Shown: piece by piece, positions 17,307 to 26,002 of the stretch
How the letters are laid out: every line of letters begins with the position of its first letter
How positions within the stretch are numbered: the stretch's first letter is position 1
Origin: Halorussus gelatinilyticus
GTDB taxonomy: Archaea; Halobacteriota; Halobacteria; Halobacteriales; Haladaptataceae
Reading direction: 5' to 3'
Assembly (NCBI RefSeq): GCF_023238445.1
Contig: NZ_CP096658.1
Span: 1,674,001-1,738,000, forward strand
Length of the DNA stretch: 64,000 bases
Translations under genes and position numbers: made by a program
The notes under the pieces: model-generated
The model's input: only the letters and a program-made list of their open reading frames with translations
Databases searched by the model: none
Told to the model about the DNA's origin: nothing

Positions 17307-19259
17307 ATGGTCGATGGCACTCCCGACGAGCGCGAGTGGGTGGACCCGCCCGAGTCGTTCGTCGCACAGGCGAACGTGACGGCGGCCGACCGCGACGCGT
17401 TTCGGGCCGCGGGGTGGCCCGAGTGCTGGCGGCGGGCCGCGGACCTGCTGGAGTGGGACCGCGGGTTCGACGCGGTGCTGGACGGCGGCGCGAGCGCCGG
17501 GACCGACGACGAAGGCTCGATTCGCTGGTTCCCCGGCGGGCGACTCAACGCCGCGCACAACTGCGTTGACCGCCACGTCGAAGCGGGCCGGGGCGACGAG
17601 ACGGCGGTCGCGTGGGAGGGGAAACTCGGCGAGACGCGGACCTACACCTACCGGGAGTTGCACGACGAGGTGAACGCCTTCGCGGCCGCGCTCCGCGAGT
17701 TGGGCGTCGGCGAGGGCGACGTGGTGACGCTCTACCTGCCGATGATTCCGGAGTTGCCGGTCGCGATGCTGGCCTGCGCGCGCATCGGCGCTCCGCACTC
17801 GGTCGTCTTCGCCGGCTTCTCGGCGGACGCGCTGGCGACGCGACTCTCGGGCGCGGAGTCGGAGTTCCTCGTGACCTGCGACGGCTACTACCGGCGCGGG
17901 GCCGCGCTGGACCTCAAACGCCGCGCGGACAACGCCTGCGTCTCGGTCTCCCACTCCGTCGAGCAGGTCGTGGTCAACAGGCTGGACGACGGCCGACCGG
18001 CGGGCGACTGCCACGCCTACGCCGACCTCGTGGACGACCACGCCGGGGCGACGGTCGAACCGGTCGCCCGCGAGAGCGACGACCTGCTATTTCTCATCTA
18101 CACCTCCGGAACGACCGGCGAACCGACGCTGGTCCGCCACACGACCGGGGGCTACCTGACCCACGTCGCGTGGACCAGCCACGCGGTCCTCGACTTGGGT
18201 CCCGACGACACCCACTGGTGTTCCGCGGACGTGGGCTGGATCACCGGACACTCCTACGCGGTGTACGGGCCGCTCGCGCTCGGTGCGACGACGGTGCTGT
18301 ACGAGGGGACGCCCGACCACCCCGAGACCGACCGGCTCTGGGAGATAATCGAGCGCAACGACGTAGACGTGTTCTACACTGCGCCGACCTCGATTCGGGC
18401 GTTCATGAAGTGGGGCGAGGAGCATCCCGCGCGCCACGACCTGTCGAGCCTGCGCCTGCTCGGGAGCGTCGGCGAACCGATAGACGAGACCGCGTGGCAC
18501 TGGTACCGCGACCACGTCGGCGACGGCGACTGTCCGGTCGTGGACACGTGGTGGCAGACCGAGACCGGCGGCATCGTCCTCTCGACGCTCCCCGGTGCCG
18601 ACCGGATGCGTCCCGGCGCTGTCGGCAAGAGCCTCCCCGGCGTCGAGACCGCCGTCGTGGACGAGACCGGCCGCCACGCCGACGACGGCGAGGCGGGCCA
18701 ACTCGTCGTCACCCGCCCGTGGCCGGGGATGGCTCGGTCGCTCTGCGAGGAATCGGGGTGGGGCGCGCGCCGGACCCGCCGCGTCGACGGCGAGTGGCAG
18801 TACGCCACCGGCGACAACGCGGTCCGCGACGCCGACGGCTACCTCCACCTGCTCGGGCGGGCCGACGACGTGGTGAAGGTCTCCGACCGGCGACTCAGCA
18901 CCGCCGAAATCGAGTCGGCCATCGTCGGCGTCGAGGGCGTCGCGGAGGCCGCGGTCGTCGTCGGCGCGGACGACGAGGCGGCCCACCGCTCGGAGATTCA
19001 CGCCTTCGTCAGCCCAGAGTCGAACGTCGCGGGCGACGACGCGCTCCGCGAGCGCGTCGGCCGAGCGGTCGAGGAGGCCATCGGCTCCATCGCGGTCCCC
19101 GACGTGGTGACGTTCGCGCCCTCGCTCCCGAAGACGCGCTCGGGCAAGGTCGTCCGGCGGTATCTGGCGGCCATCGCCAACGGCGAGGAGTTGGGCGACA
19201 CGTCGGCGCTCCGGAACCCGGAGGTCGTCGGGGAACTGGAGTCGCTGTTGGACAGATGA
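17307..19259 (+). CDS. acetyl-CoA synthetase-like AMP-forming acyl-CoA ligase, divergent copy
   Basis: A 650-residue ANL-superfamily enzyme of the Acs class, which makes acetyl-CoA from acetate, ATP and CoA. The P-loop is TSGTTGEPTL (about 265), where the usual PKG is PTL. The acetate-pocket tryptophan is kept in DTWWQTETGG (about 414). The catalytic lysine is in TRSGKVV (about 614). The hinge region reads VSDRRLST where Acs normally has VSGHRLGT. These changes suggest altered substrate use or kinetics. The intact paralogue is at 21733, with a Bat-type regulator between them. Confidence 0.85.
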   Translation: MVDGTPDEREWVDPPESFVAQANVTAADRDAFRAAGWPECWRRAADLLEWDRGFDAVLDGGASAGTDDEGSIRWFPGGRLNAAHNCVDRHVEAGRGDETAVAWEGKLGETRTYTYRELHDEVNAFAAALRELGVGEGDVVTLYLPMIPELPVAMLACARIGAPHSVVFAGFSADALATRLSGAESEFLVTCDGYYRRGAALDLKRRADNACVSVSHSVEQVVVNRLDDGRPAGDCHAYADLVDDHAGATVEPVARESDDLLFLIYTSGTTGEPTLVRHTTGGYLTHVAWTSHAVLDLGPDDTHWCSADVGWITGHSYAVYGPLALGATTVLYEGTPDHPETDRLWEIIERNDVDVFYTAPTSIRAFMKWGEEHPARHDLSSLRLLGSVGEPIDETAWHWYRDHVGDGDCPVVDTWWQTETGGIVLSTLPGADRMRPGAVGKSLPGVETAVVDETGRHADDGEAGQLVVTRPWPGMARSLCEESGWGARRTRRVDGEWQYATGDNAVRDADGYLHLLGRADDVVKVSDRRLSTAEIESAIVGVEGVAEAAVVVGADDEAAHRSEIHAFVSPESNVAGDDALRERVGRAVEEAIGSIAVPDVVTFAPSLPKTRSGKVVRRYLAAIANGEELGDTSALRNPEVVGELESLLDR

Positions 19260-19332
19260 GTTTCGGATTTCCGTAGAAGGGCGAAATCTCTCGACACGGC
19301 TGGTTGACGGAAAGGTATAGATTTGTCTAATG

Positions 19333-19502: not shown

Positions 19503-19696
19503 AACGAGCGGTGGCTTTCGAGGCGGTCTGCTCGGCGTTTTCGGCGGTCGGTCCGTGAGCGAATTTACGACGAGGTCCGGTTCGTGCAGTCGTCCTCCCT
19601 CCCGTTCCGGCTCACCACGAACGGACGAAAGCCACTCTTCCGACCATCGCTCTCACGGAAGCTTTATTCGTTCTCTTTCAGAAAGGCGAAGCAGAG

Positions 19697-21553
19697 ATGG
19701 CCGTCGAATCGCGTACCGACTACCTCACCACCGCCGAGTTCCGGCGCTTCCGGCGTCGGGCCGAGACCTACCGCGAGGACCTCGTGGTCGCGCTCGCCGG
19801 GCGCGTCGGCCTCCGGGCGTCCGAAACCACGCGCATCTGTCCCGCCGACCTGCGCGAGTTCGAGCGCGGCGGCGCGGTCCACTACCTCCTGACGGTCCCC
19901 GAGGGCGGCGCGACCGAGAGCGGAGACGGTGCCGCGGGCGAGACCGGTTCCGCGACCCGCGACGCCTACGTTCCGCCGCCGGTCGCCCACGATTTGCGGA
20001 AGTTCGCCAACGCCAACGACGTGGCGCGCCGGGACCCCGTGGTGGACGTGTCGCCCCGGCGCGTCCAGATGCTCGTCGGCGAGGTGGCCGACCGGACCGC
20101 CGACCTGCGCGACGTGACCTGCCGGGACCTCCGCCAGCACTTCGCGTGGCGACTGCTGGCCGAGGAGGGCGTCGCGCCCCGCGTCGTCAAGTCGGTCGGC
20201 GGGTGGGCTAGCCTCCAGAGCCTCGCGCCGTACCTCGACGACCCGACCACCGCGGAGGTCGTGGACGCCTTCGCCGACGGGCCGGAAGGACGGAATCGGT
20301 CGGCGAGAGGGCGTCCCGGCCGGTCGTCCCGTACGCACCCCGGCCAATCGGTCCCCGAGCGTCGGCCGACCGCCGGGCGCGGCGGCGCGACCGACTCCCG
20401 GAGCGACGACCTGCTGTCGTGCGCCGGGGCGCTCGGCGAGGCGCTCGCGGACGCCTCGACCGCCGAGGAAGTCGAGCGCGTCGTCTGCGACCGCCTCGCC
20501 GACCGGTTTCGAGGGGTCTGGGTCTGCGACGCGCAGGGTGAAGTCCGGACGAGCGCCGCGCCGGAGGGGACCGACGGCGTGCCCGCCGACGCGCTGGACG
20601 GGGCAGACCTGCCGGACGACGGCGCGACCGACGACGCGAGGGTCCTCGACGCGCTCCCCGCGGACGCCCGCCCTGCGGACGGCTCGCTGGCGGGACGCTC
20701 GCTCGCGGTCGCACCCCTGCAATCGAGCGAGACCGTCCACGGTCTGCTCTGCGTCGCCCGCGACTCGTTCGCGGCGGCCGACCGGACCTTCCTCGCGGAC
20801 GCCGGACGGCGGGCCGGCCGGACCGTCACGGCCATCGCGCGCAAGCAGTTGTTACTGGCCGACACGGGCGTCGAACTCTCGCTCCGGACGACCGACCGAG
20901 GCGTCTTCCTCGTGGCCGCCTCCGCGGACCTCGGCTGTCGCTTCGAACTCGAAGGCGTCGTCCCGGTCGAGGACTCGCTGCTCTACTTCGTCACGGCGAG
21001 CGGTGCCGCGGTCGGCGACGTGCTGGAGCGCGTCTCGGACGCCGAGTCGGTGGACGACGCCCGACTCATCCGGGACTACGGCGACGGCGCGCTCTTCGAG
21101 TTCGCCGTCTCGGGCGCGTCGGTCGCGTCGGTGCTGGTCGAGCGCGGCGGGACGGTCCGCGAGCTGTCGGCCGCGGACGGCGAGGCCGACGTGACGGGGG
21201 TCTTCTCGCAGCGCGTGGACGTGCGCCGCGTCGTGGAGGCCGTCGAGGAGGCGTTCCCCGACACGGACCTGCGCTCGAAGCGCGACGTCGAAGAGCCGGT
21301 CCGGAGCGCCGCCACGGTCCGCCAGACCGTCCACGACCGCATCACCGAGCGCCAGCGGACCGTCCTCCGGGCGGCCTACCTCGCGGGCTACTTCGAGTGG
21401 CCCCGCGGGAGCACCGCCGAGGAGTTGGCGGCGTCGATGGACGTCTCGTCGCCGACGCTCCACAACCACCTCCGGAAGGCCCAGCAGAAGGTCTTCGACG
21501 CGGTGTTCGACGACCCCGACCCGTCCGCGACCGACGAGTTCGACCCGACCTGA
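19697..21553 (+). CDS. Bat-type transcriptional regulator with integrase-like N-terminus
   Basis: A 618-residue multidomain protein. Residues 1-185 resemble the tyrosine-recombinase catalytic core: LRASE (Arg near 41), RDLRQHF (second Arg), then GGWAS and the Tyr in PYLD near 178. The usual HxxR histidine is Arg. A Gly/Ser/Arg linker follows, then a GAF-like region (about 235-385), a bacterio-opsin-activator domain (about 390-540) and a C-terminal HTH_10 with STAEELAASMDVSSPTLHNH. HTH_10 proteins activate haloarchaeal genes; lying between two acs genes, this one probably controls acetate use. Strand breakage by the N-terminus is doubtful. Confidence 0.85.
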   Translation: MAVESRTDYLTTAEFRRFRRRAETYREDLVVALAGRVGLRASETTRICPADLREFERGGAVHYLLTVPEGGATESGDGAAGETGSATRDAYVPPPVAHDLRKFANANDVARRDPVVDVSPRRVQMLVGEVADRTADLRDVTCRDLRQHFAWRLLAEEGVAPRVVKSVGGWASLQSLAPYLDDPTTAEVVDAFADGPEGRNRSARGRPGRSSRTHPGQSVPERRPTAGRGGATDSRSDDLLSCAGALGEALADASTAEEVERVVCDRLADRFRGVWVCDAQGEVRTSAAPEGTDGVPADALDGADLPDDGATDDARVLDALPADARPADGSLAGRSLAVAPLQSSETVHGLLCVARDSFAAADRTFLADAGRRAGRTVTAIARKQLLLADTGVELSLRTTDRGVFLVAASADLGCRFELEGVVPVEDSLLYFVTASGAAVGDVLERVSDAESVDDARLIRDYGDGALFEFAVSGASVASVLVERGGTVRELSAADGEADVTGVFSQRVDVRRVVEAVEEAFPDTDLRSKRDVEEPVRSAATVRQTVHDRITERQRTVLRAAYLAGYFEWPRGSTAEELAASMDVSSPTLHNHLRKAQQKVFDAVFDDPDPSATDEFDPT

Positions 21554-21698
21554 CGCGACTACCGACACTAATTGCTTAACCTCGGCCGGGGGCGCGCTTC
21601 AGTGAACCAGTGAAAACCGTGACATTAAACGTCCTAATACACACTTACGACGGCTATACGTCGCGTAATCGGGCGCTTGAGATAGTTAGTTCCACGAC

Positions 21699-21704
21699 TT
21701 ATAT
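21699..21704 (+). promoter_or_regulatory. TATA box of acs
   Basis: TTATAT lies 29-34 bases before the ATG at 21733. The 180 bases upstream of the gene are AT-richer than the surroundings and include two neighbouring CAGTGAA motifs at about 21600-21612, a possible regulator site. Confidence 0.55.
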
Positions 21705-21732: not shown

Positions 21733-23721
21733 ATGCCGGAGAAACAAGACGTCGAACTCGAAGCCAGACTCGAAGACCGACAGCGTTTCGAACCGCCCGA
21801 GTCGTTCGTCGAACAGGCGAACGTCTCGGACGCGTCCGTCTACGAGCGGTTCGAAGAGGACTGGCCCGAGTGCTGGGAGGAGGCGGCGGACCTCCTCGAT
21901 TGGGACGAATCGTACGACGAGGTGCTGGACGACTCGAACCCGCCGTTCTACGAGTGGTTCACCGGGGGCGAACTCAACGCTTCGGCGAACTGCCTCGACC
22001 GGCATCTGGACGAGCGCGGCGACGAGGCCGCAATCGAGTGGGTCGGCGAACCCACCGACGAGGACAACCGGACCTACACCTACGAGGAACTCCACCGCGA
22101 GGTCAACGAGTTCGCGGCCGCGCTGGAGGAGATGGGCGTCGGCGAGGACGACGTGGTAACGATGTACATGCCGATGGTACCGGAGCTACCCATCGCCATG
22201 CTGGCCTGCGCGCGCATCGGCGCGCCCCACTCGGTCGTCTTCGCCGGCTTCTCGGCGGACGCGCTGGCGACGCGCATGAACGCGGCCGACTCCGAGTACC
22301 TCGTGACGTGCGACGGCTACTACCGGCGCGGCGACCCGCTCGAACACAAGGCGAAGGCCGACGAGGGCCTGGCTGGCGTCGAACACGAGGTCAGCGACGT
22401 GGTGGTCGTGGACCGTCTCGGCGACGACTACGACCACCCGATGGGCGAGAGCCACAGCGCCTACGCCGACCTCGTGGACGCGCAGGCGGGCGCGGAAGTC
22501 GAACCGGTCTCGCGCGACGCCGAGGACATGCTGTTCCTGATGTACACCTCGGGGACCACGGGCGAGCCGAAGGGCGTCAAGCACACGACCGGAGGCTACC
22601 TCGCGTGGACCGCGTGGACCTCCCGAGCGGTGTTGGACGTCAAGCCCGAGGACACCTACTTCTGCTCGGCGGACATCGGCTGGATTACCGGCCACTCCTA
22701 CATCGTCTACGGGCCGCTCGCGCTCGGCACGACGACGATGATGTACGAGGGTACTCCGGATTACCCCGAGAAAGACCGCCTCTGGGACATCGTGGAGAAC
22801 TACGAGGCCGACCAGCTCTACACCGCGCCGACCGCGATTCGGGCGTTCATGAAGTGGGGTAGCCAGTACCCCGAGCAGCACGACCTGTCGAGCCTTCGTC
22901 TGCTCGGGACGGTCGGCGAGCCTATCAACCCGAAGGCGTGGAAGTGGTACTACAAGCACGTCGGCGACGAGTCCTGCCCCATCATCGACACGTGGTGGCA
23001 GACCGAGACCGGCGGGATGATGGTCACGACCCTGCCCGGCGTGAAGGACATGAAGCCCGGAAGCGCCGGGCCGCCCCTGCCGGGCGTGGACGCGCAGGTC
23101 GTGAACGCCGACGGCGACGAGGTCGCCCCCGGCGAGGCGGGCTATCTGACCGTCCAGAAGCCGTGGCCGGGGATGCTCCGGACGCTGTACCAGAACGACG
23201 AGCGCTACATCGAGGAGTACTGGGCGGAGTACTCCGACACTCAATCCGACGACCCCGACGACTGGGTGTACTTCCCCGAAGACGGCGCGAAGATAGACGA
23301 CGACGGCTACGTCACCGTCCTCGGGCGCGTGGACGACGTGATAAACGTCTCCGGGCATCGCCTCGGAACGATGGAGATCGAGAGCGCAATCGTCGGCGTC
23401 GAGGGCGTCGCGGAGGCCGCCGTGGTCGGCGGCGACCACGACGTGAAGGGCGAGGCGGTCTACGCCTACGTCATCACCGAAGACGGCTACGAGGAAGACG
23501 ACGCGATGCGCCAGCGCATCGTCGAGGGCGTCGAGGACGCCATCGGTCCCATCGCCCGGCCCGAACAGGTCGTCTTCACGCCAGAACTCCCGAAGACGCG
23601 CTCGGGCAAGATCATGCGACGCCTGCTCGAAGACGTCGCCAACGGCGAAGACCTCGGTGACACCTCGACGCTCCGGAACCCCGAGGTCGTCAGCGAAATC
23701 GCGGCGAAGGTAGACGAGTAG
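21733..23721 (+). CDS. acs: acetate-CoA ligase (acetyl-CoA synthetase)
   Basis: A 662-residue Acs with all class motifs: P-loop TSGTTGEPKGVKHTTGG (about 270), WWQTETGG (about 420) with the Trp that limits the pocket to short acids, hinge GRVDDVINVSGHRLGTMEIE, and catalytic Lys in TRSGKIMRR (about 624). It activates acetate to acetyl-CoA with release of AMP and pyrophosphate in the cytosol. The downstream DUF4212/symporter pair probably imports the acetate. The strong TATA box suggests regulated, high expression. Confidence 0.95.
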   Translation: MPEKQDVELEARLEDRQRFEPPESFVEQANVSDASVYERFEEDWPECWEEAADLLDWDESYDEVLDDSNPPFYEWFTGGELNASANCLDRHLDERGDEAAIEWVGEPTDEDNRTYTYEELHREVNEFAAALEEMGVGEDDVVTMYMPMVPELPIAMLACARIGAPHSVVFAGFSADALATRMNAADSEYLVTCDGYYRRGDPLEHKAKADEGLAGVEHEVSDVVVVDRLGDDYDHPMGESHSAYADLVDAQAGAEVEPVSRDAEDMLFLMYTSGTTGEPKGVKHTTGGYLAWTAWTSRAVLDVKPEDTYFCSADIGWITGHSYIVYGPLALGTTTMMYEGTPDYPEKDRLWDIVENYEADQLYTAPTAIRAFMKWGSQYPEQHDLSSLRLLGTVGEPINPKAWKWYYKHVGDESCPIIDTWWQTETGGMMVTTLPGVKDMKPGSAGPPLPGVDAQVVNADGDEVAPGEAGYLTVQKPWPGMLRTLYQNDERYIEEYWAEYSDTQSDDPDDWVYFPEDGAKIDDDGYVTVLGRVDDVINVSGHRLGTMEIESAIVGVEGVAEAAVVGGDHDVKGEAVYAYVITEDGYEEDDAMRQRIVEGVEDAIGPIARPEQVVFTPELPKTRSGKIMRRLLEDVANGEDLGDTSTLRNPEVVSEIAAKVDE

Positions 23722-23828: not shown

Positions 23829-24335
23829 ATGTCAGATAATCACACACGACAGCCAGAGACCGACTCACGAACGGACGAATCGACTCCGAACGTCGAGACC
23901 GACGGCGGTGAGCCCGAACCGGGCGAACCTCGTCGGGGAGCGGAGCGGACCGACGGCGGCGTCGCCACCGGGAGCCGACACGCCGACACCGACTACCTCG
24001 ACGCGCAGGTCAACATCTTCAAACCCTCGACGCCGTTCATGCGCGACCACCTCCGCATCGTCTGGGCGATGTTCGCGGCGTGGGCCGTCTTCGTCTTCGG
24101 CCCCGTGACGGCGACGTACCTCGCCACCGACTTCATGACGAGTACGACGGTGCTGAGCTTCCCGCTCCACTACCTGCTGACCGCCGTCGGCGCGCCGTCC
24201 GGCGCACTCCTGCTTTCGTTCGTCTACGCCCGAAAGCGCGACCAGTTGGACGAGAAGTACGGCATCGACCACTCCGCGGGGGCGACGACCGGTGACGGCG
24301 AGGCGGCCGCGACCGACGGAGGGTCCGACCGATGA
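23829..24335 (+). CDS. DUF4212 protein, small subunit of sodium/substrate symporter
   Basis: A 168-residue protein. An acidic N-terminus of about 55 residues precedes the DUF4212 core, with two membrane helices (about 73-95 and 105-130) and the conserved tail FVYARKRDQLDEKYGI. DUF4212 proteins are encoded directly before VC_2705-type sodium:solute symporters and are thought to be their small subunit. Here the stop overlaps the symporter start by 4 bases, which is strong evidence for translational coupling. Confidence 0.88.
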   Translation: MSDNHTRQPETDSRTDESTPNVETDGGEPEPGEPRRGAERTDGGVATGSRHADTDYLDAQVNIFKPSTPFMRDHLRIVWAMFAAWAVFVFGPVTATYLATDFMTSTTVLSFPLHYLLTAVGAPSGALLLSFVYARKRDQLDEKYGIDHSAGATTGDGEAAATDGGSDR

Positions 24336-26002
24336 CGTTCGCGCCCGTCCCCCTCGACCTCCTGCCGGACGCGCTGAACGCCTCGTTCAAACTCATCCCG
24401 GCCGTCATGGTCTCGGCGATGCTGTTGCTGTTCCTCGGCATCGGCTACGCCTTCCGCGTGGCCGACACCGAAGACCTCTGGGTCGCCGGACGCTCCATCG
24501 GGAACGTCGAGAACGGGATGGCCATCGGCGCGAACTGGATGTCCGCCGCGTCGTACCTCGGCATGGCGGCGCTCATCGCGCTGTCGGGCTACTACGGGCT
24601 GGCGTTCGTCGTCGGCTGGTCCACGGGTTACTTCATCCTGCTCATCTTCCTCGCGGCCCAGATGCGCCGGTTCGGGAAGTACACCGCGCCCGACTTCGTG
24701 GGCGACCGGTTCGACTCCGACACGGCGCGGGCCATCGCCGCGCTGACGACCATCCTCATCGGGTTCGTCTACTCCGTCGGGCAGGCCCGCGGGATGGGAC
24801 TGGTCGGCATCTACGTCTTCGGCGGCGACTACACCACGATGGTCGTCCTGATGATGGGCATCACGGTCGGCTATCTGGCGCTGTCGGGGATGCTCGGCGC
24901 GACCAAGAACATGGCCGTCCAGTACGTCATCCTCATCGTGGCGTTCCTCGCGGGACTCTACGCGGTCGGTTGGACGCAGGGCTACTCGACGTTCCTGCCG
25001 CAGGTCGAGTACGGCGCGCTCCTCAGCCAACTCAACAGGGAGTTCACCCAACCGTTCACGAACGGCGGGTTCTACCTCTGGGTCGCCACCGCGTTCTCGC
25101 TCATCGTCGGCACCTGCGGTCTCCCCCACGTTCTGGTTCGGTTCTACACGGTCGAGAGCGAGCGCACCGCGCGCTGGTCCACCGTGTGGGGTCTGTTCTT
25201 CATCTGCCTGCTCTACCTGAGCGCCCCGGCGTTCGCCGCGTTCGGCACCGACCTCTACGCGAACAAGGTCGGCGCGGTCTACGGTGCGAACGGCATGAGC
25301 GGCGCTGAAGGCGACGTCATCGTCGTGCTGGCCTCGCAACTGGCGAACCTGCCGACGTGGTTCGTCGGGTTGGTCGCGGCCGGCGGTATCGCCGCCGCAA
25401 TCGCGACGACCGCGGGCCTGTTCATCGCCGCGTCGTCGGCGGCCGCACACGACATCTACACGAACATCGTCAACGAGGACGCGACTCAGCGCCAGCAGCT
25501 CCTCATCGGTCGCGCGACCATCGTCGCGCTCGGTGCCATCGTGACCGTGACCGCGCTGAACCCGCCGGCGCTGGTCGGCGAACTGGTCGCGCTCGCGTTC
25601 TCGCTGGCCGGCCTCGTGCTGTTCCCGATGTTCTTCCTCGGTCTCTGGTGGGAGAACGCCAATCGGCCCGGTGCGCTCGCCGGGATGACGACGGGACTGC
25701 TCATCTGGACCGCCGCGGTGTTCAACGAACTCATCCTCGCCACCGACGCCGGGGCGGTCGTGCCGCTCTACGCCGACATCTTCCCCGCGGTCGGGGCCGC
25801 GCTCGCCGGGACGCCCATCGTCTTCGCGGTGACCATCGGCGTCTCGCTGGCGACCGACGAACCGCCCGAGCGCATCAAGCGCATCGTCCGGCAGTGTCAC
25901 AGTCCGGAACCGATGGGCCAACAGCAGAGCGCCGAGGACGTGGTTTCGACCGACGGCGGACAGGTCTCGACCGACGGCGGCCACGCACAGGAGGAGAACT
26001 GA
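24332..26002 (+). CDS. sodium:solute symporter, VC_2705 subfamily (probable acetate/carboxylate uptake)
   Basis: A 556-residue SSS-family transporter with about 13 membrane helices. Family features include ADTEDLWVAGRSIGNVENG after the first helix, NWMSAASYLGMAA, and GTCGLPHVLVRFYTV in the middle, typical of the ActP-like branch. The C-terminal tail is Ser/Asp/Gly-rich with a repeated STDGG motif. The neighbouring acs genes make acetate or a similar short carboxylate the likely substrate; this is inferred from context. Confidence 0.9.
   Translation: MTFAPVPLDLLPDALNASFKLIPAVMVSAMLLLFLGIGYAFRVADTEDLWVAGRSIGNVENGMAIGANWMSAASYLGMAALIALSGYYGLAFVVGWSTGYFILLIFLAAQMRRFGKYTAPDFVGDRFDSDTARAIAALTTILIGFVYSVGQARGMGLVGIYVFGGDYTTMVVLMMGITVGYLALSGMLGATKNMAVQYVILIVAFLAGLYAVGWTQGYSTFLPQVEYGALLSQLNREFTQPFTNGGFYLWVATAFSLIVGTCGLPHVLVRFYTVESERTARWSTVWGLFFICLLYLSAPAFAAFGTDLYANKVGAVYGANGMSGAEGDVIVVLASQLANLPTWFVGLVAAGGIAAAIATTAGLFIAASSAAAHDIYTNIVNEDATQRQQLLIGRATIVALGAIVTVTALNPPALVGELVALAFSLAGLVLFPMFFLGLWWENANRPGALAGMTTGLLIWTAAVFNELILATDAGAVVPLYADIFPAVGAALAGTPIVFAVTIGVSLATDEPPERIKRIVRQCHSPEPMGQQQSAEDVVSTDGGQVSTDGGHAQEEN

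Follow-up and report, generated by a model that had tools for sequence, protein, structure and literature searches.

The window analysed here is the 64,000-nucleotide stretch at positions 1674001–1738000 of a 3.67-Mb haloarchaeal chromosome. By sequence, its closest named relatives belong to Halorussus, which is probably also the genus of the window. It carries an acetate locus in which a gene for a 618-aa regulator is flanked by two acs genes and followed by genes for a small membrane protein and an ActP-like permease (window coordinates throughout):

17307–19259, forward strand: acs1, AMP-forming acetyl-CoA synthetase homologue (ACS8-like; PF00501 and ACAS_N), upstream of the regulator in 65 loci
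19697–21553, forward strand: Int-GAF-BAT-HTH_10 regulator, 618 aa, an intact open reading frame with 65 fused relatives between acs genes
21733–23721, forward strand: acs2, AMP-forming acetyl-CoA synthetase homologue (ACS7-like; PF00501 and ACAS_N, synteny)
23829–24335, forward strand: DUF4212 small membrane protein (PF13937)
24332–26002, forward strand: SSF sodium:solute symporter, ActP-like acetate permease (PF00474), whose counterpart is characterised in H. volcanii (PMC7746861)

The regulator itself is divided as follows:

19697–20278, forward strand: predicted tyrosine-recombinase catalytic-core domain, residues 1–194 (model, PDB fold matches, PaXerA profile match and residue counts)
20057–20071, forward strand: RRVQM, residues 121–125, predicted DNA-recognition helix (conservation in fused proteins, model and XerA alignment)
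20279–20416, forward strand: disordered linker, residues 195–240 (low pLDDT and the highest dN of the protein)
20417–20857, forward strand: GAF-like sensor domain, residues about 241–387 (weak Pfam GAF match, alpha/beta domain in the model)
20861–21322, forward strand: BAT domain, residues 389–542 (PF15915, E = 1e-43)
21341–21496, forward strand: HTH_10 DNA-binding domain, residues 549–600 (PF04967, E = 3e-20)

The BAT (149 bits) and HTH_10 (72 bits) matches are both above the Pfam cut-offs, which agrees with the view of the earlier note that the protein behind its N-terminal domain is a Bat-type activator. The GAF match reaches 14.5 bits against a cut-off of 22.4, and the fold is plausible in the model. 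The full-length model (pLDDT 81.9, pTM 0.40) is confident for the domains but not for their mutual arrangement, and pLDDT falls below 50 at residues 197–230 of the linker. One relative is a longer 737-aa variant with an extra PAS domain (integrase core-PAS-GAF-BAT-HTH_10; L108, 8519–10729). In Haloferax denitrificans ATCC 35960 the fused gene (L066, 6971–7630) is truncated to 220 aa, seemingly through a frameshift or a sequencing error.

We then compared the N-terminal domain with known integrases. The match of the single window protein to PF00589 (Phage_integrase) is weak (19.1 bits against a cut-off of 27.1), but the cut-off is exceeded by three relatives (L108, L074 and L111) and by stand-alone proteins. 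The domain also matches the NCBIfam archaeal XerA model (6e-7) and PHROG integrases (1e-9), and a 42-sequence family profile matches the PDB chains of PaXerA (E = 8e-19) and TaXerA (7e-10). An AlphaFold2 model of the domain, built from an alignment without the plasmid-collection rows, has a mean pLDDT of 91.5 and a pTM of 0.86. Its top matches in the PDB are without exception tyrosine recombinases (XerA, XerH, IntI and Cre, with E-values of about 1e-6 to 1e-4 and TM-scores of mostly 0.6–0.7), and its named viral structure matches are integrases or recombinase-domain proteins. Because relatives pass the PF00589 cut-off, the family profile matches PaXerA and the model matches recombinases, we take the resemblance as homology rather than chance; by profile and predicted structure, the N-terminal domain is a tyrosine-recombinase core. 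The earlier note had described this region as integrase-like and had named a mismatch with the integrase fold as the result that would speak against it; the predicted fold matches. The classical N-terminal core-binding domain is missing, so that the regulator begins directly at the catalytic core, as do the stand-alone relatives.

The active site is incomplete. The window protein retains Arg40, Arg146, Trp170 and Tyr179, the His position is occupied by R143 and the Lys of the beta2–beta3 turn is absent; the R, K, H, R, H/W, Y set by which an active tyrosine recombinase is recognised is therefore not complete. The two Arg, the Tyr and the replacement of the HxxR His by Arg had been named in the earlier note, which overlooked the loss of the Lys and mistook the GGW motif for a departure from the H/W position. 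Trp is usual there, as in Cre, and W170 is kept in 64/65 relatives. Across the 65 fused proteins the first Arg is present in 55, the Lys in none, the His in four, the second Arg in 64, the Trp in 64 and the Tyr in 46, which amounts to losses of Lys in 65/65, His in 61/65 and Tyr in 19/65. By contrast, all 25 stand-alone relatives have the complete R, K, H, R, W, Y set. As the decay differs between lineages, the chemistry is arguably no longer selected, and the residue counts suggest that the integrase core of the fused family is probably non-catalytic.

Selection nevertheless acts on the domain. That it is a leftover without present function in an otherwise normal Bat-type regulator would fit the decayed active site and several long branches in the domain tree; we consider this very unlikely, since the domain is retained in many families and is under purifying selection (dN/dS about 0.2–0.45 in close pairs) at a level between the GAF and BAT domains (mean dN 0.18 for the integrase domain, 0.28 for GAF and 0.15 for BAT), and since its predicted recognition helix is invariant in the 65 proteins. 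The RRxQM motif on helix 120–132 is the same in 64–65 of the 65 fused proteins, with Q124R as the sole exception, and is variable in the 25 stand-alone ones. This helix aligns with the PaXerA helix SPKTVWRLV and may be the counterpart of Cre helix J (R259 and E262), which sits in the major groove (PMC7438526).

Relatives were searched for with an alignment of fused proteins only; 242 of 293 haloarchaeal genomes have a match. The matches split into long open frames of about 550–900 aa and short ones of about 200 aa; among the frames read, fusion goes with the long class, and the short frames encode stand-alone proteins. These stand-alone relatives carry the annotation of site-specific integrase and lie on plasmids (e.g. 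pNRC100, pHS4 and pNG400), and such plasmid integrases are the closest sequences to the N-terminal domain (34–44% identical). In an unrooted tree of 90 domains, from which other integrases were left out, one branch with a support of 100/100 separates the 65 fused from the 25 stand-alone domains. This is consistent with one fusion event. No stand-alone integrase was found in the viral contigs searched, and a single weak match came from the phage collection. On pHS4 (L125, 4001–5025) and pNG400 (L126, 4001–5016) the stand-alone integrase gene is followed, with a 4-base overlap, by an open reading frame of ∼140 aa with no Pfam match, possibly encoding a partner protein. A 147-bp open reading frame of the Halobacterium plasmid pHS4 (L125, 1057–1203) labelled as mupirocin-resistance ileS by PLSDB is far too short and is probably a false call.

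The surroundings of the fused gene are strongly conserved. An acs gene lies directly upstream of it in all 65 distinct haloarchaeal loci read, and a second acs lies downstream in every locus with enough sequence except L106 (genome G032), in which acs1 and the regulator are followed directly by DUF4212-SSF with no acs2 between. Both neighbours are present in each of 22 loci that include Halorussus, Halomicrococcus, Haladaptatus, Halogranum, Haloferax, Halosimplex and Haloarcula, and the upstream acs in each of 33 further loci sampled across families. In a survey of 24 genomes, close acs copies numbered two or three in each of the 13 that carry the fusion and one in each of the other 11; no DUF4212-SSF was found beside the orphan acs2 in the six regions read. 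This synteny across loci and genomes indicates that the locus is a conserved module. The earlier note had placed the gene between two acs genes and had asked for a survey of haloarchaea, with a scattered distribution as the outcome that would count against it: acs1 and acs2 do flank the gene in the window, and the family is not scattered (acs upstream in 65/65 loci, two or more acs in 13/13 genomes with the fusion against one in 11/11 without).

The downstream genes have a studied counterpart. In H. volcanii, a transcript of about 4600 nt covering acs7-HVO_A0155-ssf-uspA appears on acetate and is absent on glucose or casamino acids, acetate is transported by ActP, and ACS8, the counterpart of acs1, is reported as uninvolved in acetate activation (PMC7746861). 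There, acs8 is HVO_A0158 and acs7 is HVO_A0156, so the gene between them, HVO_A0157, should be the orthologue of the regulator, judging from gene numbering and the synteny of other Haloferax species. The word ‘regulator’ is absent from the main text of PMC7746861.

We also analysed the promoters of the locus. One conserved element precedes acs2:

21682–21703, forward strand: acs2 promoter box ATAGTTAG-N8-CTTATA, a putative activator site together with the TATA box, in 49/53 acs2 promoters

The consensus is YTAG-N8-YTTA; the forms that actually occur are ATAGTTAG, ATAATTAG or CACACCTAG ahead of the TATA box. Only 0.54 of the 53 promoters would be expected to carry it, and in 38 its spacing to the start codon is identical. 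Elsewhere it is found in 2/55 acs1 and 1/65 regulator promoters, and in 0/11 promoters of orphan acs2 genes from genomes without the fusion. The exact form of the box in the window occurs only once in the genome, upstream of acs2. The box is a natural candidate site for the HTH_10 domain. In genome G053, which has no fusion, the orphan acs2 (L123 and L083) has a near-match with two extra bases of spacing, at which another Bat protein may act.

A different pair of elements lies between acs1 and the regulator:

19261–19286, unstranded: distal inverted repeat TTTCG-N16-CGAAA, two bases past the acs1 stop codon; exact distal copies in 47/65 loci
19667–19690, unstranded: proximal inverted repeat TTCG-N16-CGAA, overlapping a TATA-like TTTATT (19663–19668) and ending 6 bp before the start codon; exact in 57/65 loci

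The count allowed both spacers and took in the whole intergenic region at each of the 65 distinct loci; a repeat was called proximal if it ended no more than 45 bp from the start codon (mostly 2–9) and distal if it started within 40 bp of the acs1 stop. Exact TTCG-N15/16-CGAA occurs at both positions in 42 loci, at one in 20 and at neither in three, i.e. at least one copy in 62/65, with the N15 class added post hoc after the exceptions had been viewed; counting N16 only gives 50/65 loci against 1.0 expected. Dinucleotide shuffles, which ignore kinship, predict 0.02 loci with both positions and about 1.2 with one, and show only that the motif is non-random, as the loci share ancestry. Mere shared ancestry is not a sufficient explanation, because the middles of the sites and the DNA between them vary. 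The spacer is identical at both sites in 41 of the 42 paired loci (32 with N16 and nine with N15). The distance between site centres is mostly 77–130 bp, and in the window (405 bp) and L012 (614 bp) the sites stay at both ends. Helical phasing of these distances is not distinctive: uncorrected for kinship, a period of 10.5 bp gives a resultant of about 0.65, and periods of 11–12 bp give one equally high. Exact N16 copies within 150 bp upstream are absent from acs1 (0/55) and acs2 (0/53), and the repeat was not found upstream of the six BAT-type paralogues of the window genome without an integrase domain. The unusually long (437 bp) intergenic region of the window contains a third exact TTCG-N16-CGAA at 19540–19563, which may be there by chance. 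A genome search for further copies gave a dozen palindromic places, from which we claim no wider regulon. The only fused protein with Q124R in RRxQM (L107, 8591–10393) also lacks both exact repeats, a coincidence that a match between protein and site predicts, in a single case.

Similar layouts precede the stand-alone integrases. Many have a distal 23-bp inverted repeat GACGACTT-N7-AAGTCGTC beginning about 108–136 bp upstream, several have a weaker repeat directly at the start codon, and perfect 8+7+8 repeats were seen six times against 0.06 expected. The form in L034, TCGTAGTT-N7-AACTACGA, lies inside TTCG...CGAA; the inner arms of the stand-alone repeats (CGACTT) mostly differ from those of the fused genes. 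It is mainly this resemblance in layout that leads us to regard the TTCG/CGAA repeats as putative operator sites of the integrase domain. The proximal repeat covers the TATA-like box and the DNA up to where the transcript probably starts, so autorepression is predicted.

Together, these features suggest a local acetate-operon regulator that arose when a small, core-only plasmid-type tyrosine integrase was fused to a GAF-BAT-HTH_10 activator, a reading that we hold with moderate confidence. In it, (i) the integrase core would have lost recombination and would still recognise the palindromic core-type site TTCG-N15/16-CGAA; (ii) two such sites would flank the promoter of the regulator's own gene, the proximal one overlapping the TATA/start region, and bound dimers, possibly bridged by a loop, would repress that gene; (iii) the GAF/BAT part would sense the inducing state (acetate or a derived signal); and (iv) HTH_10 would act at the ATAGTTAG-type box beside the acs2 TATA box and turn on acs2-DUF4212-actP. 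Published acetate induction, synteny and the conserved promoter box support the predicted control of the acs2-actP promoter, and the regulator probably switches on acetate uptake and use. Reuse of an integrase core as a second DNA-binding module, suggested in the earlier note, gains support from the paired operator-like repeats and the invariant predicted recognition helix. Points against this reading are the His kept in 4/65 and the Tyr kept in 46/65 fused proteins, the three loci without exact repeats, the shared ancestry of the loci, the differing inner arms of the stand-alone repeats on whose analogy the assignment to the integrase domain depends, and the near-match to the acs2 box in one genome that lacks the fusion.

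Other explanations must be weighed against it. The integrase core could serve only in oligomerisation or as a structural module, with HTH_10 or another regulator on the repeats and another factor on the acs2 box. Nearby genes are often regulated by HTH_10 proteins, and as the locus has conserved sites of two kinds and the protein two candidate domains for binding DNA, the pairing of domain and site is our assignment. However, similarly laid-out repeats precede stand-alone integrases that have no HTH_10, the repeats are missing before BAT paralogues that have no integrase domain, and the fused proteins do not vary in the predicted recognition helix of their integrase core, so that we judge a purely structural role unlikely. 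The repeats might also be RNA features, i.e. terminator or leader hairpins, as the position of the distal repeat directly after the acs1 stop codon would allow. This is hardly credible: only 4–5 bp per arm are conserved around a middle of 15–16 nt, the motif also recurs across the TATA/start region, a place in which a terminator would be pointless, and the spacer length agrees between both sites of a locus.

It is likewise highly improbable that the protein is still a recombinase or nickase that cuts or inverts the DNA between the repeats and thereby alters regulator expression. Both Arg, the Trp and the Tyr of the window protein, the His of four relatives, the palindromic core-type character of both sites and the placement of the family among tyrosine recombinases in PMC8371274 would suit such an activity, but Lys (65/65), His (61) and Tyr (19) have been lost differently by lineage, and acs synteny and repeats persist despite these losses, e.g. 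in Haloferax without the Tyr. A bolder form of the regulator reading is that a plasmid integrase gene brought its own pair of core-type sites along when it was captured, protein and operator entering chromosomal metabolism as a single unit, and that the dead recombinase loops and silences its own promoter by a synapsis-like tetramer, coupled through GAF/BAT to HTH_10 at a second kind of site. We put this forward tentatively and with some doubt; if it is true, one protein would carry two DNA-reading domains of unrelated folds with two target grammars.

The regulator shares its GAF-BAT-HTH_10 C-terminal half with the Bat (bacterio-opsin activator)/HTH_10 regulators of haloarchaea. An upstream activator sequence is expected beside the TATA box of the target of such a regulator, and the acs2 box is alike in this position. 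The known N-terminal parts of Bat/HTH_10 regulators are REC, PAS or GAF (PMC5847659), in contrast to the recombinase core here. The acs7-HVO_A0155-ssf-uspA operon of H. volcanii, which is acetate-induced, has the same content as the operon downstream of the regulator (PMC7746861); our analysis names a candidate regulator for it in a genetic model and gives exact putative operator sequences.

The domain architecture alone is already known. In the part of Badel et al. 2021 (PMC8371274) that concerns it, fam30-04 is one of 17 archaeal tyrosine recombinase families, is treated as a recombinase and combines Phage_integrase, BAT and HTH_10, in some members with GAF_2. By this composition, with the published clustering not rerun, it very probably comprises the same proteins as our fused regulators. 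That part gives the family one classification line and describes no catalytic decay, acs linkage, operator-like repeats or regulatory role. New here are the catalytic decay, the acs linkage throughout the module, the acs2 box and the paired repeats, which are laid out like those of the plasmid integrases. The relevant part of a review of mobile-element genes recruited by prokaryotes (PMC8987985) contains no case of a recombinase core recruited as a regulator; this covers the open-licence literature, and an earlier description is possible.

An analogue in function is MrpR (YopR), the master repressor of prophage SPbeta, which has a tyrosine-recombinase fold, has lost catalysis and represses via repeated elements (PMC10516654; PDB 8A0A). 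Unlike the regulator, it has retained the core-binding domain and lacks both a sensor and an HTH_10 part, and it governs a prophage instead of metabolic genes of the chromosome. Our domain model matches it (8bj6) only distantly in fold; the resemblance is one of working only. The stand-alone plasmid integrases (pNRC100, pHS4 and pNG400) share the paired upstream repeats with the fused genes and differ in their length of about 200 aa, complete catalytic set and other recognition-helix residues. In archaea, the fused family appears to offer a widely conserved example, on chromosomes, of a tyrosine recombinase that has become a module of a transcription factor. Since plasmids still carry related integrases whose active sites are complete, the states before and after this change can be compared.
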